NCBI RefSeq assembly: GCF_001418655.1
Contig: NZ_LIQZ01000087.1
Coordinates: 1-64,000, forward strand
Length of the DNA stretch: 64,000 bases
Origin: Streptomyces phaeochromogenes
GTDB taxonomy: Bacteria > Actinomycetota > Actinomycetes > Streptomycetales > Streptomycetaceae
Direction of reading: 5' to 3'
Under the pieces are notes generated by a model, which was not told the origin of the DNA, ran no database searches, and saw only the letters and a list, made by a program, of their open reading frames with translations. The translations under genes were made by a program, and so were the position numbers. Of the stretch, positions 22,936 to 51,340 are shown one piece after another (position 1 is the stretch's first letter; each line of letters starts with the position of its first letter).

Positions 22936-23138
22936 CTGTGCACCCCGTATCTGGGTAGCCGCCCGACCGCTCAAGAAGTTGACCGGTGGCCCGCTGTGCC
23001 ACTCACCGGGCGTCCTGCCCGGGTATCCGGCTGCTCCGGCGGCCGGAGGCATCCGGACGAGTGGCCCGGCTCACATGGCGCGGGGCGGGCGGGGCCGACA
23101 CGATGGTGCGCGTCACCGGGCAGGCTGAAGGGATCCAA

Positions 23139-26100
23139 ATGTTCCGCAAGGTGCTGGTCGCCAACCGTGGTGAGATCGCTATTCGTGCGTTCCGTGCCGG
23201 CTTTGAGCTGGGCGCGCGAACCGTGGCCGTCTTCCCGCACGAGGATCGCAATTCACTGCACCGGCTGAAGGCGGACGAGGCTTATGAGATCGGGCAGCCG
23301 GGACACCCGGTCCGGGCCTACCTCTCCGTCGAGGAGATCGTCCGCGCGGCGCAGCGCGCGGGAGCGGACGCGGTCTACCCGGGATACGGGTTCCTCTCGG
23401 AGAACCCCGACCTGGCGCGCGCCTGCGAGGAGGCCGGCATCACCTTCGTCGGCCCGAGCGCGGACACGCTGGAGCTGACCGGCAACAAGGCGCGCGCGGT
23501 GGCCGCCGCCCGCGCGGCAGGCGTGCCGGTGCTCGGCTCCTCCGCCCCCTCCAACGACGTGGACGAACTCGTCCGCGCCGCCGAGGACATCGGCTTCCCG
23601 GTGTTCGTCAAGGCCGTCGCGGGCGGTGGCGGGCGTGGCATGCGGCGGGTCGAGGAGCCCGCCCAGCTGCGCGAGTCCATCGAGGCGGCGTCCCGCGAGG
23701 CGGCGTCCGCGTTCGGCGACTCCACGGTCTTCCTGGAGAAGGCCGTCGTCGAACCCCGCCACATCGAGGTGCAGATCCTCGCGGACGGGGAGGGCAATGT
23801 CATCCACCTCTTCGAGCGCGACTGTTCGGTGCAGCGCCGCCACCAGAAGGTGATCGAGCTCGCCCCCGCGCCGAACCTCGACCCCGAGCTGCGCGACCGG
23901 ATCTGCGCCGACGCCGTACGGTTCGCCCGGGAGATCGGCTACCGCAACGCGGGCACCGTGGAGTTCCTGCTCGACCGCGAGGGCAACTACCACTTCATCG
24001 AGATGAACCCGCGCATCCAGGTCGAGCACACGGTGACCGAGGAGGTCACCGACGTCGACCTCGTGCAGTCGCAGCTGCGCATCGCCTCCGGCCAGACCCT
24101 GGCCGACCTCGGGCTCTCCCAGGAGACCGTCACCCTGCACGGCGCCGCACTCCAGTGCCGTATCACCACCGAGGACCCGGCCAACGGCTTCCGCCCCGAC
24201 ACCGGGAAGATCAGCGCCTACCGCTCGCCCGGCGGTTCGGGCATCCGGCTGGACGGCGGCACCACCCACGCCGGTACGGACATCAGCGCGCACTTCGACT
24301 CGATGCTGGTCAAACTCACCTGCCGGGGACGCGACTTCAACACCGCGATCGGCCGCGCCCGCCGTGCCGTGGCCGAGTTCCGCATCCGCGGTGTGGCCAC
24401 CAACATCCCCTTCCTGCAAGCGGTGCTGGACGACCCGGACTTCCGGGCCGGCCAGGTCACGACGTCGTTCATCGAGAAGCGTCCGCACCTCCTCACGGCC
24501 CGTCACTCCGCCGACCGCGGTACGAAGCTGCTCACCTACCTCGCCGACGTCACGGTGAACAAGCCGCACGGCGAACGGCCCGAGCTGAGCGACCCCGTCA
24601 CCAAGGTGCCGCCCGTGTCGGCCACGGAGCCGCCTGCCGGGTCCCGGCAGCGGCTCGTCGAACTCGGCCCCGAGGGATTCGCCCGGTGGCTGCGCGAGTC
24701 ACCGGCCATCGGCGTCACCGACACCACGTTCCGCGACGCCCACCAGTCGCTGCTCGCCACCCGGGTGCGTACCAAGGACATGCTCGCCGTCGCGCCCGTC
24801 GTGGCGCGGACCCTGCCCGAGCTGCTGTCCCTGGAGTGCTGGGGCGGCGCCACCTACGACGTCGCGCTGCGCTTCCTCGCCGAGGACCCCTGGGAACGCC
24901 TGGCCGCGCTCCGCGAGGCCGTGCCGAACATCTGTCTGCAGATGCTGCTGCGTGGCCGCAACACCGTGGGCTACACGCCGTACCCGACCGAGGTGACCGA
25001 CGCCTTCGTGCAGGAGGCCGCGGCGACCGGTATCGACATCTTCCGGATCTTCGACGCGCTGAACGACGTCGGGCAGATGCGCCCCGCCATCGACGCCGTA
25101 CGGGAGACGGGAACGGCGATCGCCGAGGTCGCCCTCTGCTACACCTCCGACCTGTCCGACCCGTCCGAGCGGCTCTACACGCTGGACTACTACCTCCGCC
25201 TCGCCGAGCAGATCGTCGAGGCAGGGGCTCACGTCCTGGCCGTCAAGGACATGGCGGGCCTGCTGCGCGCTCCGGCCGCCGCGACCCTCGTATCGGCGCT
25301 GCGCCGCGAGTTCGACCTGCCGGTGCACATCCACACCCACGACACCGCGGGCGGTCAGCTCGCCACCTACCTCGCCGCGATCCAGGCCGGCGCGGACGCG
25401 GTCGACGGCGCGGTGGCCTCGATGGCGGGCACCACCTCGCAGCCCTCGCTGTCGGGCATCGTCGCCGCGACCGACTACACCGAGCGGTCCACCGGGCTGA
25501 GTCTCCAGGCCGTGGGCGACCTGGAGCCGTACTGGGAGAGCGTCCGCAAGATCTACGCGCCCTTCGAGGCGGGGCTTGCCGCGCCGACCGGGCGGGTCTA
25601 CCACCACGAGATCCCCGGCGGGCAGCTCTCCAACCTGCGCACCCAGGCGGTCGCGCTCGGCCTCGGCGACCGCTTCGAGGAGATCGAGGCGATGTACGCA
25701 GCCGCCGACCGCATCCTCGGCCATCTGGTGAAGGTGACCCCGTCCTCGAAGGTGGTCGGTGACCTCGCGCTCCACCTGGTGGGCGCCGGCGTCTCACCGG
25801 CGGACTTCGAGGCGACCCCGAACAGGTTCGACATCCCCGACTCCGTCATCGGCTTCCTCCGCGGCGAGCTGGGCAACCCGCCCGGCGGCTGGCCCGAGCC
25901 GTTCCGCACCAAGGCACTTGAGGGCCGCGCCGCCCCCAAGCCGGTCGAGGAACTGACCGCGGACGACCGCGAGGGGCTGGTGAAGGAGCGCCGCGCGACA
26001 CTCAACCGGCTGCTGTTCCCCGGCCCGACGCGCGAGTTCGAGACACACCGTCAGACCTATGGCGACACCAGCGTGCTGGACAGCAAGCACTTCTTCTACG

Positions 26101-26513
26101 GGCTGCGTCCGGGGAAGGAGTACGCGGTCGACCTTGAACAGGGCGTACGGCTGCTCATCGAGCTGGAGGCCGTGGGCGAGGCCGACGAACGCGGAATGCG
26201 TAGCGTGATGTCCACCCTGAACGGCCAGTTGCGGCCGATCCAGGTGCGCGACACCTCGGTCGCCTCCGACGTCCCGGCCACGGAGAAGGCCGACCGGGCC
26301 AACCCAGGCCATGTCGCCGCGCCGTTCGCCGGAGTCGTGACCCTCGCGGTCGCCGAGGGCGACGAGGTGGCGGCCGGTGCCACGGTGGCCACCATCGAGG
26401 CCATGAAGATGGAGGCCTCGGTCACCGCCTCGAAGGCCGGAACAGTGTCCAGGCTGGCCATCAACAAGATCCAGCAGGTGGAGGGCGGCGACCTGCTCGT
26501 CGAGATCAGCTGA
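23139..26513 (+). CDS. pyc: Pyruvate carboxylase
   Basis: 1124 residues; ATG at 23139 with GAAGGGA upstream, which gives the standard start MFRKVLVANRGEIAIRAF. Biotin carboxylase covers about 1-455, with ATP-grasp loop KAVAGGGGRGMRR and ERDCSVQRRHQKVIE. The carboxyltransferase runs about 530-810, with DTTFRDAHQSLLATR and the metal site HIHTHDTAGG. A PYC/OADA domain follows, and the biotinyl domain ends the protein with EAMKMEA, biotin on Lys of about 1090. It converts pyruvate and bicarbonate to oxaloacetate using ATP, feeding the TCA cycle. The length is the norm for a single-chain enzyme. Confidence 0.97.
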   Translation: MFRKVLVANRGEIAIRAFRAGFELGARTVAVFPHEDRNSLHRLKADEAYEIGQPGHPVRAYLSVEEIVRAAQRAGADAVYPGYGFLSENPDLARACEEAGITFVGPSADTLELTGNKARAVAAARAAGVPVLGSSAPSNDVDELVRAAEDIGFPVFVKAVAGGGGRGMRRVEEPAQLRESIEAASREAASAFGDSTVFLEKAVVEPRHIEVQILADGEGNVIHLFERDCSVQRRHQKVIELAPAPNLDPELRDRICADAVRFAREIGYRNAGTVEFLLDREGNYHFIEMNPRIQVEHTVTEEVTDVDLVQSQLRIASGQTLADLGLSQETVTLHGAALQCRITTEDPANGFRPDTGKISAYRSPGGSGIRLDGGTTHAGTDISAHFDSMLVKLTCRGRDFNTAIGRARRAVAEFRIRGVATNIPFLQAVLDDPDFRAGQVTTSFIEKRPHLLTARHSADRGTKLLTYLADVTVNKPHGERPELSDPVTKVPPVSATEPPAGSRQRLVELGPEGFARWLRESPAIGVTDTTFRDAHQSLLATRVRTKDMLAVAPVVARTLPELLSLECWGGATYDVALRFLAEDPWERLAALREAVPNICLQMLLRGRNTVGYTPYPTEVTDAFVQEAAATGIDIFRIFDALNDVGQMRPAIDAVRETGTAIAEVALCYTSDLSDPSERLYTLDYYLRLAEQIVEAGAHVLAVKDMAGLLRAPAAATLVSALRREFDLPVHIHTHDTAGGQLATYLAAIQAGADAVDGAVASMAGTTSQPSLSGIVAATDYTERSTGLSLQAVGDLEPYWESVRKIYAPFEAGLAAPTGRVYHHEIPGGQLSNLRTQAVALGLGDRFEEIEAMYAAADRILGHLVKVTPSSKVVGDLALHLVGAGVSPADFEATPNRFDIPDSVIGFLRGELGNPPGGWPEPFRTKALEGRAAPKPVEELTADDREGLVKERRATLNRLLFPGPTREFETHRQTYGDTSVLDSKHFFYGLRPGKEYAVDLEQGVRLLIELEAVGEADERGMRSVMSTLNGQLRPIQVRDTSVASDVPATEKADRANPGHVAAPFAGVVTLAVAEGDEVAAGATVATIEAMKMEASVTASKAGTVSRLAINKIQQVEGGDLLVEIS

Positions 26514-32074: not shown

Positions 32075-33139
32075 TCAGGACGTCGGCTCGGTGACCTTCG
32101 TGGCCGTGTCGCCGTCGACCGCCGCGCTCAGCTGCGGGACCAGGCGCTCCAGCATGTACGGCAGGCTCAGCACCGACACGAACGAGACGGCGTTGCCGTA
32201 GTCGCCCGCCTCCTTGACGAAGACCTCACGCCCCTGCTTCACCACGTTCAGGTCGGCGTAGAGGGCGTTCTTGTGAAGCGTGGCCGCGTCCTTGGTGGTG
32301 TCGCCGACGATCCACACGATCGCGTCGGTGTCCAGCAGGTCGGTGCGCTCCTTGCTGATGTTGGCCCCGAACTCGTCACCGATGACCTTGTCCAGGTCCT
32401 TGGGCAGCTCGAAGCCGAGGTCGGTCAGGATCCGCGAGCGCGGGTCCTGGCTGCCGTAGACGAAGATGCCCTCGTACGGGGTCGCCATCACGCCGGTGGA
32501 CTCGGCGAACTCGGGATTGTCCTCGGCCGTGGTCGCGATGTCGTCCTGGACGCCCTTGACCAGGTCCTTTGCCTTGCTCTCCTGGCCGAGCGCCTTGCCG
32601 ATGATCCCGGTCTGCTTCTGCCACGGCACACCGAAGTCGTTGTACTCCTTCGGCTGGGCCACGACCGGGGCGAACTTCGACAGGGTCGTGTACTGGTCCT
32701 TCGTCAGACCGCTGTAGACCGCGAGGATCAGATCGGGGCGGAGCGCGGCGATCCTCTCCGTCTGCGGGCCCGTGCCGGTGTCCTTCAGCACGGTCGGGGC
32801 CTCGGCGCCTCCCAGTTTGCCGGCGGCCCAGGGGCCGATGGCGCCCTTGTAGTCGCCGAGCCACTGGGTGGTGCCGACGGGCACCTTGCCCAGCGCGAGC
32901 ACGGGGTCCTGGTCGGTCAGCCCGACCGTGACGATCCGCTTCGGCTCGGACTTGATGGTCGTGCTGCCGTACTTGTGGGCGATGGTCACCGGGAAGGCGC
33001 TGTTCGCGGACGCGGACGAGTCCGGGCCCGCCTCGGAGCTGTCGTCCTCGGAGCCGCAGGCCGCGGCGGTGGTGAAGAGGAGGAGTGCCGACGCGAGCGC
33101 CGCGACGAGGCGTGTGCCTCTTCTGGAAGAGCCGGGCAT
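32075..33139 (-). CDS. Ferric-siderophore-binding lipoprotein (second set, CchF-like)
   Basis: 354 residues; ATG at 33139 overlaps the exporter stop. The lipobox is TTAAACG. FecB/BtuF-type binding protein: AFPVTIAHKYGSTTIKSEPKR opens the mature domain, then ERIAALRPDLILAVYSGL and the closing lobe. It resembles the cchF product here over most of its length, but the ligand-facing segments differ, so it may bind another ferric hydroxamate. It is the last gene of an operon led by the 36812-36830 iron box, and no permease is adjacent; importer genes lie at 39563-42550. Confidence 0.88.
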   Translation of the reverse strand: MPGSSRRGTRLVAALASALLLFTTAAACGSEDDSSEAGPDSSASANSAFPVTIAHKYGSTTIKSEPKRIVTVGLTDQDPVLALGKVPVGTTQWLGDYKGAIGPWAAGKLGGAEAPTVLKDTGTGPQTERIAALRPDLILAVYSGLTKDQYTTLSKFAPVVAQPKEYNDFGVPWQKQTGIIGKALGQESKAKDLVKGVQDDIATTAEDNPEFAESTGVMATPYEGIFVYGSQDPRSRILTDLGFELPKDLDKVIGDEFGANISKERTDLLDTDAIVWIVGDTTKDAATLHKNALYADLNVVKQGREVFVKEAGDYGNAVSFVSVLSLPYMLERLVPQLSAAVDGDTATKVTEPTS

Positions 33140-35088
33140 CAGTGGTCCTTCAGGGTGGTGGTGTCAGGGCGGTGGTGCGTGGGGGTCTGGTCGGCCGTGG
33201 CGCGGGTGCCGGACCACGCCTCCCACAGGGAGGCGTAGACGCCGGCCGCGGCGCACAGCTCGTCGTGGGTGCCGCTCTCCACGATCCGGCCGCCGTCCAT
33301 GACGACGATCCGGTCCGCGGTGGCGGCCTGGGTGAGGCGGTGCGCGACGACGAGCGCCGTACGGCCGTCCACCGCCCGGTCCGCCGCCTGCTCCAGGAGA
33401 CGGGCGCCGGTGCTCCCGGCCTCGGCCGTCGCCTCGTCCAGCACGGCCACCGGCGGATCGGCCAGCACGAGCCGCGCCAGGGCGAGTTGCTGGACCTGCG
33501 CGGAGGTGAGGCGGTGTCCGCCCTCGCCCACGACCGTGTCCAGGCCCTCCGGCAGCGCCACGACCCAGTCCAGAGCGGACACCGCTGTCAGTGCCGTGCG
33601 CAGTTCGGCGTCGGTGGCGCCGGCCCGCGCCAGGCGCAGATCGTCCGCGAGCGGTCCGGCGAAGACGTGCGTCTCCTGGGTGACCAGCGCGACCGGCACC
33701 CCGTCGCGGGACTCCCCGGCGCCGTTCGTCGTCACGCGCACCGAGCCGGCCGTCGGACGGTGCACGCCCGCTATGAGCTTGGCCAGGGTGGTCTTGCCCG
33801 CGCCGCTCGGGCCGACCAGGGCCACGCGCTCGCCCGCCCGGAGTGTGAGGTCCACGTCGTGCAGGACGGGGCGGCCCGGCTCGTACGCGTGATGGATGCC
33901 CGTCACGGTGACCGTGCCGCCCGCCTTCGCCTCGGCCTCAGCCGCTGTCCGGGGCCGCGGTGCGTGGGCCCGCTTCTCCGCTTCGGACTTCCCTGCTTCG
34001 GGCTTCTCCGGTTCGGGCGACGGCTGGTCGGCGACCCCGACGAGACGGGCCAGCGCCGCGGTCGCCGACTGCGCGTCGTCGAGGAGGACGAGCGCCGCGT
34101 TGACCGGCGTGAACAGGCTGTGGAAGTAGAGCGCGGCGGCCGTCGCGGTGCCGATGGACACCGACCCGCCGCGCACGAGCAGGAACCCGGTGACGAGGAC
34201 GGCCGCGAGCCCCGCGTACTCGGCGATGTGCAGCCGGTTGTAGAAGTCCAGCACCAGCCGCACGCCACGCAGCGTCAGTTCGACCGCCGCCGACGACCGC
34301 CGGGTCACCCGCTCGGTGTGCTCCTCCTCCAGCCGGAACGCCCGTACGGTGCCGGCGCCCGCGACGGTGTCCAGGAGCTGCTGTTGCTGGGACCCGGTGG
34401 CGATCCGCTGCCGGCCGTAGAGCGGCACGGCGTTGCGTACGTACCACCGCGCGGTGGACGCCTGGACGGGCACCGCGATGAGCGCGGCGAGGAAGAACCG
34501 CCAGTCCAGGGCCGCCATCGCGGCCAGGGTCAGCGCGATGGCCAGCAGGGAGCGGGCCAGTTCGGGCAGCGCGTCGCGCACCGCCTCGCCCACCACCGAG
34601 ACGTCCCGGGTGACCCGGGCGGTGAGGTCTCCGGCGCCCGCCTTCTCGACCTGTTCCAGGGGCAGCCGCAGCGCCTTCTCCACGAAGCGTTCGCGCAGCC
34701 GCGCCAGTACGGTCTCGCCGAGCCGGGAGACGAGGGACAGGCCCAGCGCGGTGGTCGCGCCCTGGGCGAGGGCGACCAGGACCAGCAGGACGACCGGGAG
34801 AGTGATGTCCCCCGGCGGGCGGTGGTCGGCGACGATGTCCACGATGCGGCCCAGCAGCGGCTGGACCAGCAGGCCCACACCGGTGGCCACGATCATCGCC
34901 GCGAAGCCGGCGACCGCCAGGCCCCGGCGCGGACGCACGAGTTCGCGGACCGCGGCGCGGGTGCGGGCCGGGGTCGCGGTGGGGAGCAGCTCGCGGCCGG
35001 CGGGCTCCGAGCCGAAGTCAAGCGCCGAGCCGTCGTCGGGGGCCGCGCCGGTCGGGCCCGTGGCCGGTGTGTCGGGGGAGTCGCTCAT
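33139..35088 (-). CDS. ABC exporter half with intact Walker motifs and degenerate signature (second set, CchG-like)
   Basis: 649 residues; ATGA overlap with the partner gene. The membrane domain spans about 60-340. A charged Lys/Glu/Pro linker (about 355-400) leads to the ATPase. Walker A is GPSGAGKTT near 430, Walker B VAVLDEATAEAG near 552 and H-loop VVAHRLT, but the signature LSGGQ is replaced by LTSAQ in the segment HRLTSAQVQQLALARLV. With its partner (35085-36779) it forms a heterodimer with one competent ATP site. It is probably a siderophore exporter, by similarity to the cchG product. Confidence 0.87.
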   Translation of the reverse strand: MSDSPDTPATGPTGAAPDDGSALDFGSEPAGRELLPTATPARTRAAVRELVRPRRGLAVAGFAAMIVATGVGLLVQPLLGRIVDIVADHRPPGDITLPVVLLVLVALAQGATTALGLSLVSRLGETVLARLRERFVEKALRLPLEQVEKAGAGDLTARVTRDVSVVGEAVRDALPELARSLLAIALTLAAMAALDWRFFLAALIAVPVQASTARWYVRNAVPLYGRQRIATGSQQQQLLDTVAGAGTVRAFRLEEEHTERVTRRSSAAVELTLRGVRLVLDFYNRLHIAEYAGLAAVLVTGFLLVRGGSVSIGTATAAALYFHSLFTPVNAALVLLDDAQSATAALARLVGVADQPSPEPEKPEAGKSEAEKRAHAPRPRTAAEAEAKAGGTVTVTGIHHAYEPGRPVLHDVDLTLRAGERVALVGPSGAGKTTLAKLIAGVHRPTAGSVRVTTNGAGESRDGVPVALVTQETHVFAGPLADDLRLARAGATDAELRTALTAVSALDWVVALPEGLDTVVGEGGHRLTSAQVQQLALARLVLADPPVAVLDEATAEAGSTGARLLEQAADRAVDGRTALVVAHRLTQAATADRIVVMDGGRIVESGTHDELCAAAGVYASLWEAWSGTRATADQTPTHHRPDTTTLKDH

Positions 35089-36779
35089 GCCAGCACCGCC
35101 GTGCGGTAGGTCTCATGACGGGCTATCAGGTCGGCGTGCGGGGCGGTGTCCGTGACCCGGCCGTCGTCGAGCAGCACCACCCGGTCGGTGACGGAGAGCA
35201 GCGCGGGACTGGTGGTCACCAGGACCGTGGTGCGGCCCTTGCGGATCTCCCGGATGCCGGACGCGATGCCCGCCTCGGTCACCGCGTCGACCGCGGTGGT
35301 CGGATCGTGGACCACCAGGACGGGCCGGTCGGCCGCCAACGCACGGGCCAGGGCGACCCGTTGGCGCTGTCCGCCGGAGAGCGAGCGACCGCGTTCACCG
35401 ACCGCCGTGTCCTCGCCGCCGGGCAGTGTCTCGGCGACCTGTGCCACCCCGGCCGCGGTCATCGCGGGTTCGGGATCGGCGGAGTCGGGGGCGCCGGCCG
35501 TGACGTTGTCGCGGACCGTGCCCTCGAAGAGGTCCGCGTCGTGCTCGGCCACCAGCATCGCCGTACGCAACTCGGCGGGATCCAGGTCCCGCAGGGCCAC
35601 GCCGTCCAGCTCCACCGTGCCGCTGTCCGGGTCGGCCCGCCGGGCCAGGCAGCGCAACAGGTCGGTGGCGTGCGCGGGGTCGGTCGCGACCACGCCCAGC
35701 AGCTCGCCGGACGCGATGTCCAGGTCTACCTCGCGCAGGCCCCCGTGGCTGACACCGGTCAGCCGCACCGCGCCGCGCACCGGCTGAGCCAGGATCCGGT
35801 CTCCGGCCGTGACGGTGTGCGGGGTCGCCAGGACCTCCGCGATCCGGGTGGCCGAGGCGCGGCCCTGGGCGAGCCCGGCGTTGACCCACGCGAGCACCTG
35901 AAGTGGTCCGAGCAGGAAGAGCGCGAGCCCCACCGCCGACACCAACTGGCCCAGGCTGATGGTGCCCTGCGCGGCCAGCCGCCCGCCGACCAGGGCGACG
36001 ACGGCGATCAGGCATCCCGTCAGGGTGAGCACCATGCCGCTCTGGAAGGCCTGCGCGCGAGCGGCCTTGAGTGTGGCCTGCAACGAGTCGCGGCTGGTGG
36101 TGCGGTAGCGGGCGATGGCCGTCGACTCGCCGCCGATGCCCTTGAGAATGCGCAGCCCGGCCACCAGATCCGCGGCGACGGCCGAGGCGTGCGCCGCGCG
36201 CTCCTGCTCGGTCGCGCTGCGGGTCTCCAGCGGCTTGCTCAGCAGATGCCCCAGCCAGAGCAGCACGGGCGTGCCGAGCAGGACGACCAGGCCGAGCGTC
36301 ACCGACGTACGCAGCAGGACGACAGCGGTGGTGAGGATGCCGACCAGGGCCGAGATCCCGTACATGACCGCCATGTTGACGGCGCCGACGCGCTTGGCGT
36401 CCTCGGTGGCGATGTTGGCGAGGGCGCCGGGCAGCCGGCCTTCCTCGGCCCCGCCGCCGGGATGCAGTACCCGTCGTACGAGGGCGATCCGCAGGGTGTG
36501 TTCCGCCCGGGCGGCGGAGCGGTCGCCGGACCAGGCGCCGAAGCGCCAGCTCAGCGCCAGCCCCACGTAGACCACGGCGAGGACGCCGAGCCACAGGACG
36601 AGGGCGCCGGTGTCGGACTTGGTGACGGCACGGTCGATGACCACACCGATCAGGACCGGGACCAGCGCCTCGCCCAGCTGATGCCCGGAGCCGAGGAGCG
36701 AGCCGAGGGCGACGTCCCGCCGTTGCCCTCTTACCGATTCCCGCAGGACGTCCCGCCCCGACGGAGTTGAAGGACTCAC
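35085..36779 (-). CDS. ABC exporter half with intact signature and degenerate Walker motifs (second set, CchI-like)
   Basis: 564 residues from a GTG at 36779 with GGAGG upstream. The exporter membrane domain spans about 25-310. The ATPase keeps the signature [16 protein letters not shown] (near 467), but the Walker A position reads VVATDPAHATDLL (near 366), Walker B is [12 protein letters not shown] with Pro for the catalytic Glu, and the H-loop His is missing (VTTSPALL). It can only supply the signature face to its partner. First gene of an iron-box-led operon. Confidence 0.87.
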   Translation of the reverse strand: MSPSTPSGRDVLRESVRGQRRDVALGSLLGSGHQLGEALVPVLIGVVIDRAVTKSDTGALVLWLGVLAVVYVGLALSWRFGAWSGDRSAARAEHTLRIALVRRVLHPGGGAEEGRLPGALANIATEDAKRVGAVNMAVMYGISALVGILTTAVVLLRTSVTLGLVVLLGTPVLLWLGHLLSKPLETRSATEQERAAHASAVAADLVAGLRILKGIGGESTAIARYRTTSRDSLQATLKAARAQAFQSGMVLTLTGCLIAVVALVGGRLAAQGTISLGQLVSAVGLALFLLGPLQVLAWVNAGLAQGRASATRIAEVLATPHTVTAGDRILAQPVRGAVRLTGVSHGGLREVDLDIASGELLGVVATDPAHATDLLRCLARRADPDSGTVELDGVALRDLDPAELRTAMLVAEHDADLFEGTVRDNVTAGAPDSADPEPAMTAAGVAQVAETLPGGEDTAVGERGRSLSGGQRQRVALARALAADRPVLVVHDPTTAVDAVTEAGIASGIREIRKGRTTVLVTTSPALLSVTDRVVLLDDGRVTDTAPHADLIARHETYRTAVLA

Positions 36780-36933: not shown

Positions 36934-38283
36934 TCAGCCGGTTCGCGCGGTGAGGTCGTCCGCCAGGTCGGCCGTGCGGTGGGCGAGCAGGGAGTCGAGG
37001 ATCTCCCCGGACCGGACCGCCGTGGTGGACAGCAGGGTCGAGGTCAGTCCGTGCGTGTGCTCGGTCGCGCCCTGCAGATAGATGCCCGCCGTGACGTCGG
37101 GCGTGAGCTCGACACGGTGATCGCGGCCGACGCGCACGGCGTCCTTGTCGTCCCGCAGGCAGAGTTTCGCGGTCCTGCCCAGGAGGGTGTCGAGATCCCT
37201 GGGGCGGTAGCCGGTCGCGTGGACGAGCAGGTCCGCGGAGATCACCTCCCGTTCCCCGGTGGGGAGATACTCGACGGTGACCTCAAGGTGGTCGTCGAGA
37301 CTGCGCACGTCCCGGATGCGGGACACGTTCCGCAGGCGCAGCCGCTCACGGCCCTGCACCTTCTCGCGGTACATCGTCGCGTACAGCGACTCGATGAGAT
37401 CCATGTCGACCACCGAGTAGTTGGTGCTGCGGTGGTAGTCGACCAGGGACTGCTTCACCTCCGGTTTGGAGCGGAAGTAGACGTCCACCGCCTCCGGGTC
37501 GAAGATCCGGTTGGCGAACGGGCTGTCGTCGGCGGGCGTGTACCCGTACTTGGCGAAGATCGCGCAGATCTCCGACTCGGGGAAGGACTGGTGCAGATAG
37601 TCCACGGCCTCGGCCGCGCTCTGGCCCGCGCCGAGCACCAGGACGCGGCCCACCGGGGTACCGGACTCGTTCAACTCGCGTACCCGCGGAACGAGTTGGC
37701 TGTTGTGCCAGATGCGGTCGGACAGGGCGGTGTCCGGTGGCAGGTGCGGCTCCAGACCGACGGCCACCGAGATGTTCCGGGCCCTGCGGGTGATGGTCCG
37801 CTCGGGGGCGCCGGGCACGCGGCTGACCACATCAAGCCAGCGGACCTCCCCGTCGGGTCCGGCCACCGGGTCGACCGACACGACCTCGTCGGAGTAGTCG
37901 ACGAGGTGGGCGACCCGGGCGGCGGCCCACTCGAAGTACTCGTGGAACTCGATCCGCAACGGGAACAGCGTCTTCGCGTTGAGGAAGTCGACCATCCTGC
38001 CCCGCTCCCGCAGGAAACACAGGAAGCTGAAGTCGCTGGTCGGGTTGCGCATGGTGACCAGGTCCTTGAGAAAGGACACCTGCATCGTGGCGTCTTCGAT
38101 GAGCATTCCCCGGTGCCAGCCGAACGACGGCTGGCGCTCCAGGAATCCCGCGCGGATCCGGTGCTCCGGAGCGACTTGGGCGTTGTGTTCCTCAACCGCA
38201 ATGGCCAGTGCGAGATTTGACGGCCCGAAACCTATACCGAGCACGTCAAGGATGGCGTCCGGCTCGTCATGCAGTGCGTTCAC
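36934..38283 (-). CDS. L-ornithine N5-monooxygenase (second copy, CchB-like)
   Basis: 449 residues. The GTG at 38283 is preferred because GGAAGGA lies just upstream and the frame then opens on the conserved IGFGPSNLALAIA; a GTG nine codons earlier is possible. It has FAD site GIGFGPSN, substrate-side FGWHRGMLIEDATMQVSFLK, NADPH site LVLGAGQSAAEAVDY and ATGYRPRDL. It hydroxylates the side-chain nitrogen of ornithine, the first step to hydroxamates. It is clearly homologous along its length to cchB at 43898 but distinct. It faces the iron box 38321-38339. Confidence 0.92.
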   Translation of the reverse strand: MNALHDEPDAILDVLGIGFGPSNLALAIAVEEHNAQVAPEHRIRAGFLERQPSFGWHRGMLIEDATMQVSFLKDLVTMRNPTSDFSFLCFLRERGRMVDFLNAKTLFPLRIEFHEYFEWAAARVAHLVDYSDEVVSVDPVAGPDGEVRWLDVVSRVPGAPERTITRRARNISVAVGLEPHLPPDTALSDRIWHNSQLVPRVRELNESGTPVGRVLVLGAGQSAAEAVDYLHQSFPESEICAIFAKYGYTPADDSPFANRIFDPEAVDVYFRSKPEVKQSLVDYHRSTNYSVVDMDLIESLYATMYREKVQGRERLRLRNVSRIRDVRSLDDHLEVTVEYLPTGEREVISADLLVHATGYRPRDLDTLLGRTAKLCLRDDKDAVRVGRDHRVELTPDVTAGIYLQGATEHTHGLTSTLLSTTAVRSGEILDSLLAHRTADLADDLTARTG

Positions 38284-38320
38284 CGCAACTTTCCTTCCCC
38301 TAGGCGCCACTGATGTTAAA

Positions 38321-38339
38321 TAAGGTTAGCCTTACCTTG
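38321..38339. promoter_or_regulatory. Iron box between the second monooxygenase and the formyltransferase relic/argB
   Basis: TAAGGTTAGCCTTACCTTG, a good DmdR/IdeR-type box, lies between two divergent starts (38283 minus, 38369 plus), so one site can control both directions. Confidence 0.82.
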
Positions 38340-38368
38340 CAATGGTGTGTCCTAGGAGAGGATCGACG

Positions 38369-38560
38369 ATGCGGGTCGTCATGTTCGGCCATCAGACATT
38401 GGGGCGCCGCACGCTCCAGGCTCTGCTGGACTCCGGCCACGAGGTGGTCACGGCCGTGGCCCACCCGAAGAGCGACCACGTATACGAGAAAATCTGGGAC
38501 GGCTCCGTGGCGGCCGACTGTTTCCGCACCGTGGGCGGCCACCTGACGGCACGTCCGTGA
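38369..38560 (+). pseudogene. Formyltransferase (cchA-like) gene with a large in-frame internal deletion
   Basis: 63 residues, ATG with AGGAGAGG upstream. Residues 1-46 match the N-terminus of the cchA product ([19 protein letters not shown] against MRVVMFGYQTWGHRTLQAL; both continue with HPKS, YEKIW). They are joined directly to the last 13 residues of the same protein ([12 protein letters not shown] against FTSMGGYLTTRP). About 250 residues, with all catalytic residues (NNW, HDSLLP, Asp loop), are gone. The frame and ribosome site survive, and its TGA overlaps the argB GTG, so it may persist as a translational leader for argB. Confidence 0.85.
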
Positions 38561-39471
38561 ACGGGGCCGTCGTGGCCGAATCGGCCACCTCCCTCGATGC
38601 CGCGTCTTCCGAGGTCACGTCCTCCGCGGCCGATCTCACCGATCGCCTCGCGGCGCTGGAACCCCTGCGCGGACACACGGTCGTCGTCAAGTACGGCGGC
38701 CACGCGATGACCGACGACACGCTCCGGCGGGCCTTCGCACAGGACGTCCTCACCCTGCGGCGGGCCGGTGTCAGACCGGTCGTCGTGCACGGCGGCGGTC
38801 CGCAGATCGGCGCCCACCTGGACCGGCTCGGCCTCAAGTCGTCCTTCCTGAACGGGCTCAGGGTCACCACTCCGGAGACCATGGAGGTCGTCCGCATGGT
38901 GCTGTCCGGCAAGGTCCAGAAGGAACTCGTCGGCCTGCTGAACGAGGACGGCCCGTACGCCGTCGGCCTCAGCGGCGAGGACGGGCGCACCCTCACCGCC
39001 GTCAAGCGGTATGCCGAAGTGGCCGGTGAGCCCGTCGACATCGGGCTCGTCGGGGACGTGGCACGGGTGAACACCGCGGTCGTACGCATCCTGCTCGACA
39101 GCGGTCACATCCCGGTGGTCTCCTCCGTCGGCCGGGGCGAGGACGGGCAGGTCTACAACGTCAACGCCGATACGGCGGCCGGGGCGTTGGCGGCGGCCCT
39201 GGGGACGCGGATCCTGGTCGTCCTCACCGATGTTCCCGGGCTGTACGCCGACTGGCCCGAGAGCGACCAAATCGTCGACCGGATCGGCGCGGGTGAGCTG
39301 GAGCGGCTGCTGCCGGGGCTGAACGGCGGCATGGGACCCAAGATGGAGGCCTGTCTGAGGGCCGTCAGGGGCGGGGTCGGAGCGGCCCGGGTGCTCGACG
39401 GGCGTGCGCCGCACGCGCTGCTCGACGGGCTGGCCGGTGTCGTCGGAACGGGGACGACGATCCTGCCCTGA
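38557..39471 (+). CDS. argB: N-acetylglutamate kinase
   Basis: 304 residues from a GTG that overlaps the relic stop (GTGA). Amino-acid-kinase fold: [38 protein letters not shown] and [12 protein letters not shown] are the ArgB signatures. It phosphorylates N-acetylglutamate, the committed step to ornithine. Outside an arg operon and downstream of an iron box, it most likely raises ornithine supply for hydroxamate synthesis in low iron. A housekeeping copy is expected elsewhere. The N-terminal 38 residues are Ala/Ser-rich. Confidence 0.92.
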
Positions 39472-39562: not shown

Positions 39563-40420
39563 CTAACGGGCCCGGGCTCCATGGTGGCGCCCTATCGGGA
39601 TCACCAGCGGGGTGCCGCTGACCGGGTCCGTCGTGATCTGGCAGGTCAGGTCGAAGACGTCCTCGACGGTGGCGGCGGTGATGACCTCCGCGGGACTGCC
39701 TTCGGCGACGATCCGTCCGGACTTCATCGCGACGACGTGATCGGCGTACCGGCAGGCCTGGTTGAGGTCGTGGAGCACCATGACGACCGTGCGGTTCTCG
39801 CGCCGGTTGAGGTCGGTGATCAGGTCCAGTACGTCGATCTGATGGGCCAGGTCCAGATACGTCGTCGGCTCGTCGAGCAGCAGTACGGGGGTGCCCTGGG
39901 CGACCGCCATGGCGATCCAGGCACGCTGGCGCTGGCCGCCGGACAACTCGTCGACGGGCCGGTCCGCGAGGTCCGTCATGCCGGTGGCGTCCAGGGCTCG
40001 GCGCACGGCCTGCTCATCGGCCTTCGACCACTGCCGCCACCAGGTCTGATGTGGTGAACGGCCGCGGTTGACCAGGTCGATGACGGTCAGCCCCTCCGGC
40101 GCGAGCGGACTCTGCGGCAGGATGCCGAGGCGCTGGGCCAGCTCCCTGCTCGGTATCGACCGGATGGCCCGGCCGTCGAGGTGGACGGCTCCCTCTTTGG
40201 GCGCCAGCAGCCGGGCGAGGGCGCGCAACAGGGTGGACTTGCCGCACGCGTTGGCGCCGACGATGGCCGTGATCCGGCCCGGTGGTACGGCCAGGTCGAG
40301 GCCGTCCACGACGAGCCGGTTGTCGTAGGCCAGCCGCAGACCGCTCGCGCGCAGGTCCGGGTCGGGGGCCGGCACGCGGCCGGCCGGCCGGGGATCGGCC
40401 GGCGTGGGATCAGCCGACAT
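39563..40420 (-). CDS. Ferric-siderophore ABC importer ATPase (second set, CchE-like)
   Basis: 285 residues; ATG at 40420. Walker A GANACGKSTLL, Q-loop LPQSPLAPEGLTV, signature [17 protein letters not shown], Walker B LLLDEPTTYLDL, H-loop VLHDLNQ. FepC/FhuC type, close to the cchE product at 47471. It begins 4 bases after the permease stop and ends the three-gene importer operon. It energises the two adjacent permeases. Confidence 0.92.
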   Translation of the reverse strand: MSADPTPADPRPAGRVPAPDPDLRASGLRLAYDNRLVVDGLDLAVPPGRITAIVGANACGKSTLLRALARLLAPKEGAVHLDGRAIRSIPSRELAQRLGILPQSPLAPEGLTVIDLVNRGRSPHQTWWRQWSKADEQAVRRALDATGMTDLADRPVDELSGGQRQRAWIAMAVAQGTPVLLLDEPTTYLDLAHQIDVLDLITDLNRRENRTVVMVLHDLNQACRYADHVVAMKSGRIVAEGSPAEVITAATVEDVFDLTCQITTDPVSGTPLVIPIGRHHGARAR

Positions 40421-40424
40421 GGGT

Positions 40425-41531
40425 TCAACCTCCTGAACCCGCGCGGTTGGCGCGGGCGAGCAGCCAGAGCAGGACCGGTGCGCCGAGCACTCCGGTGACG
40501 ATTCCGACCGGCAGTTCCGTGCCGGGGACGAGCGTACGGGCGACGAGGTCGCCGCCGAGGACCACCAGCGCCCCGGTCAGTCCCGAGGCGACGGTCGGCG
40601 GCCAGGCCGTACGGGCCAGCCGCTGGGCGATCTGCGGCGCGGCGAGCGCCACGAACGCGACGGGACCCGCGGAGGCGGTGGCGAACGCGATCAGTCCGAC
40701 ACCGGCGAGCAGGATGGCGAGACGGACGGGCTGTACGCGCGTACCGAGGCCGGTGGCCACGTCGTCGCCGAGCTGGAGGGTGCGCAGCAGCCGGCCGAGC
40801 AGCAGTGCCGTCGGCAGCAGCACCGCCAGCGCGACGGCGAGCGGGCCGACCTGGTCCCACGTACGGCCGTTGAGGTTGCCGACCAGCCAGCCGAGGGCGG
40901 CCTGTGCCTGGAAACGTCCGCCCTTGGCCACCAGGTAGTCGGTGGCGCTCGTGCAGATCCAGGCCACGCCGATGCCGACCAGGATGATGCGGTATCCGGT
41001 GGTGCCGCGCCGCCAGGCCAGCGCGTAGACGATCAGGGCCGTGGCCAGGGCGCCGAACAGTCCGAGGGCCTGGGTGCCGAGGCCGCCGTCCCAGCCCAGC
41101 ACGATGCCCGCGACCACGGCGGTGCCCGCGCCCTGGGTGAGGCCGATCATGTCGGGGCTGGCCAGCGGATTGCGGGTCATGGTCTGGAACAGGGCGCCGG
41201 AGACACCGAAGGCGATCCCGGCCAACAGTCCGACCAGGGCGCGCGGCAGCCGCAGTTCCCGCACCACGAGGACGGTTCCGGGGTCGCCGGAGCCCACCAG
41301 GGCTCGTACGACGTCGGTGAAGCCGATCGGATAGTCGCCGGTCGTCAGGCCCCAGCAGAACAGCAGGAAGGTGGCGGCGGTCAGCACCGCGCACAGGGCC
41401 ACCAGCCGGGGGCGGAAGACACCGGAGACGGGCGGCAGGGTCAGCCGGTAGGTGCGGAAGCGGGGGCCACCGGGCGAATCGTCGGGAACCGGGCGGGATT
41501 TGAGCGCCTGCTTCGGGTTCGGCACGTTCAC
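40425..41531 (-). CDS. Iron-siderophore permease, FecCD family (second set, CchD-like)
   Basis: 368 residues; the GTG overlaps the stop of the other permease. A 35-residue polar N-terminus is followed by about ten membrane helices. FecCD signatures: ELRLPRALVGLLAGIAFGVS, SGALFQTMTRNPLASPDMIG, and the ATPase-docking loop GDDVATGLGTRVQ. It pairs with the 41528 permease to form the channel for ferric siderophore. Confidence 0.9.
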   Translation of the reverse strand: MNVPNPKQALKSRPVPDDSPGGPRFRTYRLTLPPVSGVFRPRLVALCAVLTAATFLLFCWGLTTGDYPIGFTDVVRALVGSGDPGTVLVVRELRLPRALVGLLAGIAFGVSGALFQTMTRNPLASPDMIGLTQGAGTAVVAGIVLGWDGGLGTQALGLFGALATALIVYALAWRRGTTGYRIILVGIGVAWICTSATDYLVAKGGRFQAQAALGWLVGNLNGRTWDQVGPLAVALAVLLPTALLLGRLLRTLQLGDDVATGLGTRVQPVRLAILLAGVGLIAFATASAGPVAFVALAAPQIAQRLARTAWPPTVASGLTGALVVLGGDLVARTLVPGTELPVGIVTGVLGAPVLLWLLARANRAGSGG

Positions 41532-42550
41532 ACCTCCGCCAGATTGCGTCTGCGGACCATGGCGATGAAGAACGGGCCGCCGATGAAGGCGACCAGTACG
41601 CCCGCCTGGATCTCGGTGGGCCGTGCCACCAGGCGTCCGAGGATGTCGGCGGTGAGCAGCAGGCTGGGGGCGAGCATCGCGGACAGCGGCAGCAGCCAGC
41701 GCTGGTCGGGGCCGATGCCCGCCGACTGGGCGAGCACACGCGCGACATGGGGGACCACCAGGCCGATGAAGACGACCGGGCCGATGACCGCGACCGAGGC
41801 CCCCGTCAGCAAGGTGACCGCTGCGACGCCCGCGAGCCGGACCAGGCCGAGGCGCCGGCCGAGCGAGGCCGCGACGTCGTCGCCGAGGGCGAGGCTGTTG
41901 AGGGCCGGAGCGCAGGCGAGCGCCAGCACCGCGCCGATGACGAGGAAGGGCAGGACCCGCCACACCATGCCGTTGTCCGCGTCCGCGAGCGAACCCGCGG
42001 ACCAGAAGCGGAACTTGTTGAGCGCGTCCACGTCGGTGAGCACGATGGCCTGGGTGAACGACCACAGCATCGAGGTGACGGCGATTCCCGCGAGCGCCAG
42101 TTTCACCGGGGTCATCCCGGACCGCCCGAGACCGCCCAGCAGATAGACGGCCACCGTGGCGATCAGCGCTCCCGCGAACGCGAACCACACATACCCGTAC
42201 AGCGAGTTGATCCCGAGCACGCCGACGGCCAGCACGATGGCGAAGGAGGCGCCGGCGCTGACCCCGAGCACCCCGGGGTCGGCGAGTGGGTTGCGGGTCA
42301 GGGCCTGCATCAGTGCACCGGCCAGGCCGAGAGCCGCGCCCGCCGCGAGCGCGAGGGCGGTACGCGGGACGCGCGCGGTCCAGACGACGTTGTCCACGAA
42401 ACGGCTCGGAGCGTCGCCGAACAGGGCCCGGATCACCTGGTCCGGCGGGATGTTGGCCGCGCCGAGCGCGAGCGACAGCAGGCAGAGGACGGCCAGGACG
42501 ACACCCAGCAGCGCCACGAGAAGGGCAGGGCGCGCTCTCTTGCCTGTCAC
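41528..42550 (-). CDS. Iron-siderophore permease, FecCD family (second set, CchC-like)
   Basis: 340 residues from a GTG with AAGG upstream. It has about ten helices. Signatures are RVPRTALALAAGAALGLAGA, LMQALTRNPLADPGVLGVSAG and GDDVAASLGRRLG. First gene of the second importer operon (permease-permease-ATPase). It follows cchA on the same strand by 142 bases, with a hairpin between, and I see no iron box of its own, so regulation may depend on read-through from cchA. Confidence 0.9.
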   Translation of the reverse strand: MTGKRARPALLVALLGVVLAVLCLLSLALGAANIPPDQVIRALFGDAPSRFVDNVVWTARVPRTALALAAGAALGLAGALMQALTRNPLADPGVLGVSAGASFAIVLAVGVLGINSLYGYVWFAFAGALIATVAVYLLGGLGRSGMTPVKLALAGIAVTSMLWSFTQAIVLTDVDALNKFRFWSAGSLADADNGMVWRVLPFLVIGAVLALACAPALNSLALGDDVAASLGRRLGLVRLAGVAAVTLLTGASVAVIGPVVFIGLVVPHVARVLAQSAGIGPDQRWLLPLSAMLAPSLLLTADILGRLVARPTEIQAGVLVAFIGGPFFIAMVRRRNLAEV

Positions 42551-42692: not shown

Positions 42693-43640
42693 TCAGGGGC
42701 GGGTGGTGAGGTAGCCGCCCATGGAGGTGAAGTACTGCGTCGCGGGCAGCTCGCGGCCGTCCTCGGTCCGTACGCGAGTGATGGCCAGGCCGTGGTTGCG
42801 GCCGGTGCGGGCGTCGGCTCCGGCGACGATCACCACGCCCTCGCCCTCGCGGTAGAAGATGCGGCCGGGCGTACCGCCGTAGCGGCCCTGGGACACCACG
42901 GCGGCGAGGACCTCGATGCGCTTGCCCTTGTGGAAGGTGAAGGCGCTGGGGTACGGCTCGGACTGGGCGCGGACCAGGCGCTCCAGGTCTTCGGCCGGCC
43001 AGGCCCAGTCGATGCGGATGTCCTCGGCGGCCCGCTTGTGGAAGAAGCTGGCCTGGGACCGGTCCTGCTTGGTGAACTCCGTCTGCCCGGCGGCGATGAG
43101 GTCGAGCGCGCCGACGGTGACCGGGGCGATGAGGTCGACGGTCTTGTGGAAGAGGTCGGTGGCGGTGTCCGTCGGTCCGACCGGAACGGCCTCCTGGCGG
43201 ACGATGTCACCCGCGTCGAGTTCGTCGTTCATCATGTGCGCGGTGACGCCCACTTCGGGCTCGCCGTTGATCAGGGCCCAGATCAGCGGGGAGAAGCCGG
43301 CGTACTTCGGCAGCAGCGAGTCGTGGACGTTCAGTGTGCCGTGGCGCGGCAGGTCGAAGATGCGCGGAGGGATCCAGGTCCGCCAGTTGTTGGCCACAAG
43401 GATGTCCGGGTCGGCCGCCTTGAGGCGCTCGAACAGCTCGTCGTCGTCGGGGCGGTTGCGGATCAGCACCGGGACGCCGTGCTCCTCGGCGAGGTCGGCG
43501 ACGGAGTCGCTCCAGATTTTCTCGTACGCGTGCTCGCTCTTGGGGTGGGTCACGACCAGCACCACGTCGTGTTCGGAGTCCAGGAGGGCTTGCAGGGTGC
43601 GGTGCCCCCAGGTCTGGTAACCGAACATGACGACCCGCAT
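42693..43640 (-). CDS. cchA: Hydroxyornithine formyltransferase CchA
   Basis: 315 residues; ATG at 43640 with GAGGAGG upstream. It is like methionyl-tRNA formyltransferase: VVMFGYQTWGHRTLQAL start, NNWRTWIPP, VHDSLLPKYAGFSPL (the H-x-SLLP site), DAGDIV, and a C-terminal OB-like domain ending MGGYLTTRP. It formylates N5-hydroxyornithine from formyl-tetrahydrofolate to give the building block for NRPS module 1. Divergent from cchB across two iron boxes, as in the known coelichelin locus. Confidence 0.94.
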   Translation of the reverse strand: MRVVMFGYQTWGHRTLQALLDSEHDVVLVVTHPKSEHAYEKIWSDSVADLAEEHGVPVLIRNRPDDDELFERLKAADPDILVANNWRTWIPPRIFDLPRHGTLNVHDSLLPKYAGFSPLIWALINGEPEVGVTAHMMNDELDAGDIVRQEAVPVGPTDTATDLFHKTVDLIAPVTVGALDLIAAGQTEFTKQDRSQASFFHKRAAEDIRIDWAWPAEDLERLVRAQSEPYPSAFTFHKGKRIEVLAAVVSQGRYGGTPGRIFYREGEGVVIVAGADARTGRNHGLAITRVRTEDGRELPATQYFTSMGGYLTTRP

Positions 43641-43680
43641 GGGGTTCCTCCTCGAAGGCAGGGGATGGACCGGGGTCAGT

Positions 43681-43699
43681 AAAGCAAGGCTTACCTTAG
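43681..43699. promoter_or_regulatory. Iron box before cchA
   Basis: AAAGCAAGGCTTACCTTAG lies 41 bases upstream of the cchA ATG. It matches the DmdR/IdeR pattern best on the minus strand (TAAGGTAAGCCTTGC). Confidence 0.78.
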
Positions 43700-43782: not shown

Positions 43783-43801
43783 TTAGCTTAGGCTAACCTA
43801 A
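43783..43801. promoter_or_regulatory. Iron box before cchB
   Basis: TTAGCTTAGGCTAACCTAA is a near-consensus DmdR/IdeR box 97 bases upstream of the cchB ATG, in the cchA-cchB divergent region. It would control cchBCD and perhaps also cchA. Confidence 0.87.
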
Positions 43802-43897: not shown

Positions 43898-45232
43898 ATG
43901 TCACAGGTTCTTCCTGATGACGCACCACTGGTCCACGACCTCATTGGCATCGGTTTCGGACCGTCCAATGTGGCCATGGCGATCGCACTCGGCGAGCACA
44001 ACGCCCGAGCCGGCGAGCAGGAGGCGATCACCGCTCACTTCTTCGAGCAGCAGCCGTGCTTCGGCTGGCACCGGGGCATGCTGATCGACGACGCGACCAT
44101 GCAGGTGTCCTTCCTCAAGGACCTGGTGACGCTGCGGAACCCGGCCAGTGAGTTCAGCTTCCTCTGCTACCTGAAGAGCAAGGGCCGGCTGATCGACTTC
44201 ATCAACCACAAGAACCTCTTCCCGCTGCGGGTCGAGTTCCACGACTACCTGGAATGGGCCGCGGCCCAGGTCGAGGACGCGGTCTCCTACGGCCACGAGG
44301 TCGTCGGCGTCGCGCCCGTCGTCCGTGACGGAGTCGTGGAGCACCTGGAGGTGACGGTCCGGTCGGCGGAGGGTCTCGCGGTCCACCGGGCCCGCAACCT
44401 GGTCCTCGGCACAGGGATGCGTCCGCTCATGCCGGAGGGTGTCGAGACGGGCGACCGGGTCTGGCACAACTCCGAACTGCTGGCGAAGGTCGACCAATTG
44501 GAGGGCACCTCGCCCTCCCGGTTCATCGTCGTGGGCGCCGGTCAGAGCGCCGCCGAGAACGTCGCCTACCTGCACCGCCGCTTCCCCGAGGCCGAGGTCT
44601 GCGCGGTCTTCTCCCGCTACGGCTACAGCCCCGCCGACGACAGCAGCTTCGCCAACCGGATCTTCGATCCCGCGGCGGTCGACGAGTACTTCGCGGCGCC
44701 CGAGAACGTCAAGCGGCGCCTGATGGACTACCACGGCAACACCAACTACTCGGTGGTGGACATAGACCTGATCGAGGACCTGTACCGGCAGACGTACCAG
44801 GAGAAGGTCCTCGGCACCGAGCGGCTGCGCTTCCTCAACGTGTCCCGGCTGACCGACGTCAAGGAGACCCAGGACACGGCCCGTGCCACCGTGACGTCCC
44901 TCGTCACCGGCGAGGAGACCGTCCTGGACGCGGACGTCGTGGTCTTCGCCACCGGCTACAGCCCCGCCGACCCCCTCGGACTCCTCGGCGAGGTCGCGGA
45001 CCACTGCCTGCGCGACGACGAGGGCCGCGTCCGCGTCGAGCGCGACTACCGCATCGTGACGGACCCCGAACTGCGCTGCGGCATCTACCTCCAGGGCGGT
45101 ACGGAGCACACGCACGGCATCACGTCGTCCCTGCTGTCCAACACCGCGACCAGGGTCGGGGAGATCCTGGACTCGCTCCTCGCCCGGGGAGTGAAGTCCC
45201 CCTCGGACGAGGCCCGGACGGTCGCCGCGTGA
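43898..45232 (+). CDS. cchB: L-ornithine N5-monooxygenase CchB
   Basis: 444 residues; ATG at 43898 with GGGAG upstream. FAD site GIGFGPSNVAMAIA, FGWHRGMLIDDATMQVSFLK, NADPH site VVGAGQSAAENVAYLH, NYSVVDIDLI and ATGYSPADPL. It makes N5-hydroxyornithine, used directly by NRPS module 3 and after formylation by module 1. The start codon lies within the palindrome GTGACATGTCAC. It is first in the plus-strand series of cch genes. Confidence 0.95.
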   Translation: MSQVLPDDAPLVHDLIGIGFGPSNVAMAIALGEHNARAGEQEAITAHFFEQQPCFGWHRGMLIDDATMQVSFLKDLVTLRNPASEFSFLCYLKSKGRLIDFINHKNLFPLRVEFHDYLEWAAAQVEDAVSYGHEVVGVAPVVRDGVVEHLEVTVRSAEGLAVHRARNLVLGTGMRPLMPEGVETGDRVWHNSELLAKVDQLEGTSPSRFIVVGAGQSAAENVAYLHRRFPEAEVCAVFSRYGYSPADDSSFANRIFDPAAVDEYFAAPENVKRRLMDYHGNTNYSVVDIDLIEDLYRQTYQEKVLGTERLRFLNVSRLTDVKETQDTARATVTSLVTGEETVLDADVVVFATGYSPADPLGLLGEVADHCLRDDEGRVRVERDYRIVTDPELRCGIYLQGGTEHTHGITSSLLSNTATRVGEILDSLLARGVKSPSDEARTVAA

Positions 45233-48310: not shown

Positions 48311-48332
48311 ATCCGCATAAAGATGATGAAGT

Positions 48333-48380
48333 TAGGCTAGGCTAACCTCACTTCGCCAGGATAAGGTTTGCCTGCCCTAA
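48333..48380. promoter_or_regulatory. Two iron boxes before cchF
   Basis: TTAGGCTAGGCTAACCTCA (48333-48351) and TAAGGTTTGCCTGCCCTAA (48362-48380) are adjacent DmdR/IdeR-type boxes whose starts are 29 bases apart. They lie 41-88 bases before the cchF ATG, so the receptor and probably the following exporter gene are iron-repressed. Confidence 0.83.
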
Positions 48381-51310: not shown

Positions 51311-51340
51311 GTAAACCTAATTTAGGTTAGGCTAACTTTC
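51307..51340. promoter_or_regulatory. Iron-box pair before the coelichelin NRPS gene
   Basis: TTAGGTAAACCTAA (51307-51320) is a perfect compact palindrome overlapping the cchG stop. TTAGGTTAGGCTAACTTTC (51322-51340) follows at once and fits the 19-bp consensus well in its left half. They lie 29-62 bases before the cchH ATG. Confidence 0.83.

Follow-up and report, generated by a model that had tools for sequence, protein, structure and literature searches.

Directly before an argB paralog in Streptomyces phaeochromogenes stands an open reading frame of 63 codons that lies behind an iron box and ends with its stop codon across the argB start. The question raised by this locus is whether the short frame is an ordinary pseudogene that has stayed open by chance, or what is left of an enzyme gene that now serves to bring ribosomes to its neighbor. 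The window analyzed here is the whole stretch of 64,000 nt taken from contig NZ_LIQZ01000087.1, in which the locus has the following parts:

36934 to 38283, minus strand: first ornithine monooxygenase (MOX1), the divergent partner (PF13434).
38321 to 38339, no strand assigned: iron box between the divergent monooxygenase gene and the relic (pattern match; conserved in relatives).
38354 to 38361, plus strand: Shine-Dalgarno site AGGAGAGG of the relic (duplex energy −14.4 kcal/mol).
38369 to 38560, plus strand: formyltransferase relic of 63 codons, a candidate translation leader for argB (open reading frame call, NF005414 match, full-length syntenic relatives).
38505 to 38515, plus strand: zone of the deletion joint in the relic, with 756 nt absent (two-part placement on relatives).
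38557 to 38560, plus strand: GTGA, the argB start overlapping the relic stop by 4 nt (shared by all 12 full-length loci and by the two other relics).
38557 to 39471, plus strand: argB paralog, acetylglutamate kinase, 304 aa (TIGR00761, 241 bits; cutoff 151.3).

The ancestor of the relic was a formyltransferase gene of 315 codons, and the loss was in frame. Residues 1 to 51 of the relic match the NCBIfam formyltransferase profile NF005414 (profile search; E = 1.4 × 10−6, 27.5 bits), a score far under the curated cutoff of 316, as expected because the relic is a fragment; no Pfam family was found in it at an E value of 0.01, a complete Formyl_trans_N domain being absent. The preliminary description had proposed a search for relatives with the full-length gene at the same place, and 12 related records have it (315 codons; 314 in Streptacidiphilus jeojiense). 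These records come from a search of 392 genomes of the genus (at least 7 with the argB paralog among the matches listed, window included), a scan of named genomes in which 80 of 111 relatives were kept (10 loci with the argB paralog, 7 of them new), and a plasmid of Streptomyces sp. NBC_01558 that carried one more full-length locus (among 10 of 37 records listed). Together they give 15 distinct loci, made up of 12 full formyltransferase genes, of which three (L041, L056, and L163) are mutually 98.8 to 99.8% identical, and 3 relics. A search of 61 relative genomes added none with the argB paralog, and a second genus search, centered on the relative G128, gave no new genome among the matches listed.

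Placed in two parts on each of the 12 full-length syntenic genes, the relic invariably fits best with a deletion whose length is divisible by 3, namely 756 nt, or 753 nt where the reference is the 314-codon gene of Streptacidiphilus. The joint falls at nucleotides 137 to 147 of the reading frame (approximately 38505 to 38515 in the window), varying with the relative used. The preliminary description had the first 46 and last 13 residues joined in frame over a lost active center, with iron box, ribosome site and reading frame preserved and the TGA overlapping the argB GTG. We find about 46 to 49 plus 14 to 17 codons, the HDSLLP-type motif falls within the deleted part, all three preserved elements are present in the window, and the overlap is the 4-nt GTGA at 38557 to 38560; that account therefore holds. 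Its further proposal, that short direct repeats be sought at the joint, fared less evenly: the repeat at the window's joint is poor (GTGGC/GCGGC in most relatives, at most 4 to 5 nt), and the clear case is Streptomyces cavernae, in which the relic consists of about 8 plus 5 codons and the junction corresponds to a short repeat in its relatives, CGGCTACC flanking both sides in several of them.

The site at 38321 to 38339 was named by what we take to be the iron-box consensus. It matches TWAGGTWAGSCTWACCTWR without mismatch, and because that pattern was itself written to fit the site, the perfect match carries little weight; what carries the assignment is its conservation together with the shuffle count, since the pattern with at most 2 mismatches hits 5 sites (10 strand matches) in the window versus 0.00 expected in shuffled sequence. 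Further iron-box-like sites with 1 to 2 mismatches lie in the coelichelin-type gene set described below (43680 to 43698, 43783 to 43801, 48332 to 48350, and 51322 to 51340). The 85 bases upstream of the relic ATG are exactly the same in the window and G128, and 62 of the next 69 bases are identical; the identical 85-base stretch also serves the divergent monooxygenase gene. The longest open reading frame of MOX1 begins at 38310, and its probable start is the GTG at 38283, with AAGGAAAG upstream (read by eye).

Relics of 63 codons in the window, 36 in G128, and 13 in S. cavernae stand at the same place, and all are in frame. The G128 relic consists of the first 23 codons, pieces from near codons 50 to 55 and 276 to 281, and the extreme end. 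Its first inner piece was placed in the native frame against all 12 full genes, and the second took the same position against 9 of the 12 (the other three gave a best placement elsewhere, at 12 to 13 of 17). Because the window relic is without the pieces from codons 50 to 55 and 276 to 281, and G128 is without codons 24 to 46 kept in the window, the two deletions are separate and neither relic can have arisen from the other. Each of the three relics retains its ATG, its ribosome site, and the GTGA overlap. A Pfam scan of the eight open reading frames around the S. cavernae relic named one only. Across the genus, MOX1 was found at 60 places in 59 of the 392 genomes, and at the 30 of these 60 places that were examined, the formyltransferase gene beside it was full in 27, a relic in 2, and a pseudogene in 1. 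In one genome (G032, locus L175) the MOX1 match holds one in-frame TGA and the formyltransferase gene is whole.

An in-frame joint as proof of selection, at a chance of 1/3 for each relic, was considered and dropped, because a null model based on repeats puts the in-frame outcome at 0.53 to 0.97, depending on repeat length and deletion size. Direct repeats within the formyltransferase gene are mostly in phase, and simulated direct-repeat deletions of at least 600 nt left the frame open to the final TGA in 591 of 994 cases (60%) for repeats of at least 5 nt, 193 of 281 (69%) for at least 6 nt, 84 of 92 (91%) for at least 7 nt, and 35 of 36 (97%) for at least 8 nt; the null was drawn from the 12 full genes, three of which are near-identical and hence not independent. 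With 60 to 97% of simulated deletions staying open, three in-frame outcomes would arise fairly often without selection. This favors the main rival to a leader role, which we regard as doubtful but of real weight, namely that the relic is an ordinary pseudogene, in frame by chance because repeat-mediated deletions in GC-rich codon-periodic DNA are usually in frame, and that argB is translated from its codon 6 or that its expression is unimportant. Under random substitution, with 20 down to 5 changes, the window relic stayed intact in 34 to 76% of trials.

The start of argB bears on both readings. A stop/start overlap of 4 nt is found in all 15 loci, with an identical GTGA in each of the 12 that are full length. 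In all 15 coupled loci the Shine-Dalgarno energy at the overlapping GTG lies between −1.5 and −4.3 kcal/mol, as weak as at internal ATG/GTG codons of the window genes (median −4.4, n = 372), whereas the relic's or full gene's own site scores −9.9 to −15.7 kcal/mol in 15 of 15. A weak ribosome site is not unusual in itself, because among 14 starts chosen mechanically in the window 3 also scored −4.9 or weaker, and no common structure among the loci was found by folding around the argB start. A possible internal start at argB codon 6 (GTG, −6.8 kcal/mol, moderate), present in the window and G128, speaks for ordinary decay. Against it, S. cavernae argB has no in-frame ATG, GTG, or TTG from the overlap as far as the ATG at codon 31, which lies within the kinase core. 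Also against it, argB stays under purifying selection in all lineages compared: dN/dS is 0.14 between the window and G128 and ranges from 0.14 to 0.26 over all 21 pairs of seven sequences, which include the three relic lineages. For this comparison several argB and MOX1 segments were taken from the beginning of the tblastn match instead of the start codon, and the G128 MOX1 segment from after its frameshift. Elsewhere in the window's genome, contig C53 carries another argB, with 59% identity to the one in the window.

That frameshift is a one-base insertion near codon 31 of the G128 MOX1 gene (L036, near 11493), the remainder of which is 98% identical to the window protein. A broken MOX1 means that the G128 locus may be dying as a whole, as a view of plain decay would have it.

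Losses of the formyltransferase gene where argB is not coupled to it serve as controls. In another type of locus, argB has an iron box of its own and a GGAG ribosome site (Shine-Dalgarno energies of the uncoupled argB genes were computed in 3 of 5 loci, and GGAG was read by eye in L069 and L086). Two loci of this kind have lost the formyltransferase gene: in Streptomyces sp. NRRL B-1347 (L080) a stop interrupts it at codon 11 and what remains is scattered, and in S. longispororuber (L078) little is left of it past the ATG; both genomes have a second formyltransferase, 93% identical. A third case is the pseudogene of G022 (L152/L184), with a stop at codon 11, a one-base frameshift, and the final stop lost; no argB was found downstream of it and no second CchA-like copy in its genome. 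The frame is thus open in 3 of 3 coupled losses versus 0 of 3 uncoupled ones (one-sided P = 0.05, by hand), a comparison with imperfect controls, in that L078 and L080 are of a more distant type and G022 is without argB. Stops, a frameshift, or near-complete erasure in all three uncoupled losses and in none of the coupled ones argue against decay of the ordinary kind. The same G022 pseudogene, however, has a large deletion of 330 nt that is in frame, so in-frame deletions also arise without a coupling constraint, which is a point for the ordinary pseudogene.

A further possibility is that the short peptide itself is functional, whether in regulation, as leader peptides can be, or by pairing with another protein; we regard this as very improbable. 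The reading frame is open, well initiated, and behind an iron box, but the three peptides, of 63, 36, and 13 residues, have only the initial MRVVMFG and the final RP in common, and residues that ought to be conserved have changed. Among the first 46 positions of the window relic, 5 of 34 residues invariant in 22 full genes are altered, as are 2 of 19 among the first 22 in G128, compared with at most 1 in each of the 22 full genes; the relic protein sequence does not look constrained. Nor do the three relics share the conserved peptide or regulatory codons of an attenuator-type leader peptide. Least probable of all is an assembly error that would make the window deletion false and the gene whole, for although the draft consists of 702 contigs, the assembly, which is 94% complete, gave no other copy of the missing core (a search at ≥75% identity matched the relic and the intact second gene at 42696 to 43640 and no others), the five invariant residues are altered in the part that remains, and differing in-frame relics occupy the same spot in the 3-contig genome of G128 and in S. 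cavernae.

The loss of the enzyme has a context in the gene sets on either side:

32075 to 36779, minus strand: substrate-binding protein and two exporter-type ABC proteins of the old cluster (NCBIfam matches under the curated cutoffs).
39563 to 42550, minus strand: iron-siderophore ABC importer genes of the old cluster (39563 to 40420 and 41528 to 42550 examined).
42693 to 43640, minus strand: intact second formyltransferase, coelichelin-type (PF00551 above cutoff; NVHDSLLP motif starting at residue 104).
43898 to 45232, plus strand: second ornithine monooxygenase (MOX2) (PF13434).
51369 to 62384, plus strand: coelichelin-type three-module nonribosomal peptide synthetase (NRPS), 3,671 aa (3 AMP-binding and 4 Condensation stretches).

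Two siderophore gene sets thus adjoin in the window (32075 to 62384), the coelichelin-type set standing in place of the old synthetase, and the arrangement in G128 is the same. The old-cluster synthetase follows the importer genes in 11 of 12 full-gene loci, the exception being S. albicerus. It carries methyltransferase domains, and its product is perhaps scabichelin-like, which is a guess of ours. When a 1,300-residue piece of this synthetase was searched for, G208 gave a match of 99% and G109 one of 81%; among the matches listed, those from the window's own genome, G128, S. cavernae, and S. albicerus did not exceed 53%. An open reading frame at 22986 to 26513 (1,175 aa) has a 76% identical relative immediately upstream of an argB in Streptomyces sp. 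130 (L075). The relic is by origin a formyltransferase of the CchA type, the hydroxyornithine formyltransferase of the coelichelin cluster; its intact homolog lies about 4 kb away, and the relic differs from it in having no catalytic core. The 3,671-aa NRPS of the window agrees with the coelichelin synthetases tabulated in PMC5932044.

The coelichelin-type formyltransferase is intact in 3 of 3 relic genomes, 93 to 100% identical to the second gene of the window, and a second formyltransferase occurs in 1 of 11 full-gene genomes, that of S. albicerus (one-sided Fisher P = 0.011, by hand, over points that are not all independent because the window and G128 are closely related). Redundancy is nevertheless insufficient for loss, since S. 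albicerus and the genomes of L069, L086, and L088 keep both formyltransferase genes. Five genomes (G422, G424, G426, G427, and G428), out of nine examined with the coelichelin-type formyltransferase, have no MOX2 above 62% identity and retain a MOX1-type gene; losses therefore hit either gene set.

Taken together, we think it most likely, with modest confidence, that a redundant enzyme gene has been turned into a translation-initiating leader for argB. The preliminary description had suggested that the mini-gene may be a coupling leader, and this is supported by its recurrence through different deletions, by the argB start without a ribosome site, and by the contrast with the uncoupled loci. 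In such a history the relic would descend from a formyltransferase gene that belonged to an older siderophore cluster, now without its peptide synthetase. The intact coelichelin-type cluster, bringing a second formyltransferase, would have made the old enzyme dispensable (the gene content is observed; the order of events is our reconstruction). Deletions took the core and spared both ends, on one side the start behind the iron box with its strong ribosome site, on the other the TGA that lies over the argB GTG. Ribosomes would then load on the relic and, having made a short peptide without meaning, terminate at the overlap and reinitiate on argB, so that what counts would be arrival at the overlap in the correct frame and not the peptide. 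ArgB, judging from its family and the iron box, may give extra ornithine precursor under iron scarcity. More tentatively, such hollowing out could be a way in which coupled operons lose genes repeatedly and under selection, deletions being tolerated only if the start and an in-frame path to the overlap remain. In that event no more than a leader might be left of the gene, enough to keep its neighbor translated, with the 63, 36, and 13 codons perhaps representing stages of the process.

The proposed coupling has precedents. PMC6728339 reports that 13 of 14 overlapping gene pairs were coupled and that removal of the Shine-Dalgarno motif substantially lowered reinitiation in 4 of 5 Escherichia coli pairs; for this reason restart on argB at the window locus may be inefficient. 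According to PMC10666635, the last 15 nt of the upstream gene were enough for coupling in the two E. coli pairs tested, and a spacing of about 20 nt almost abolished coupling in six pairs from two species. The window locus resembles the termination-reinitiation pairs of these two papers in its 4-nt stop/start overlap and its well-initiated upstream frame; it differs in that the relic is no working gene and that the argB start is without the Shine-Dalgarno motif most E. coli pairs use, the coupling itself being inferred here. Short upstream open reading frames that deliver a ribosome are a known idea, discussed in the review PMC12548453, and the role proposed here, starting translation of the next gene, is the same; unlike those described there, the relic arose by the gutting of an enzyme gene, and differently in related species. 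The MIRU elements of mycobacteria, as presented in that review, are also small open reading frames that preserve downstream expression by coupling at −4 spacing, but they are inserted mobile repeats, whereas the relic is the residue of a native upstream gene. Among titles and abstract openings, with subscription journals mostly outside that scope, we found no literature on an operon gene reduced to a coupling leader and none on an argB-formyltransferase siderophore operon. What the locus adds is the way in which such a leader would have come about, through the gutting of an enzyme gene, and the fact that related species arrived at three different results.

One operon thus offers a natural series of a gene shrinking to its neighbor's need, together with full-length relatives and uncoupled controls, in a setting where two siderophore gene sets are merging and redundant genes are dropped from either side. 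If the coupling is true, one source of the short upstream open reading frames of bacteria would be explained, and short in-frame pseudogenes within operons may be regulatory DNA.
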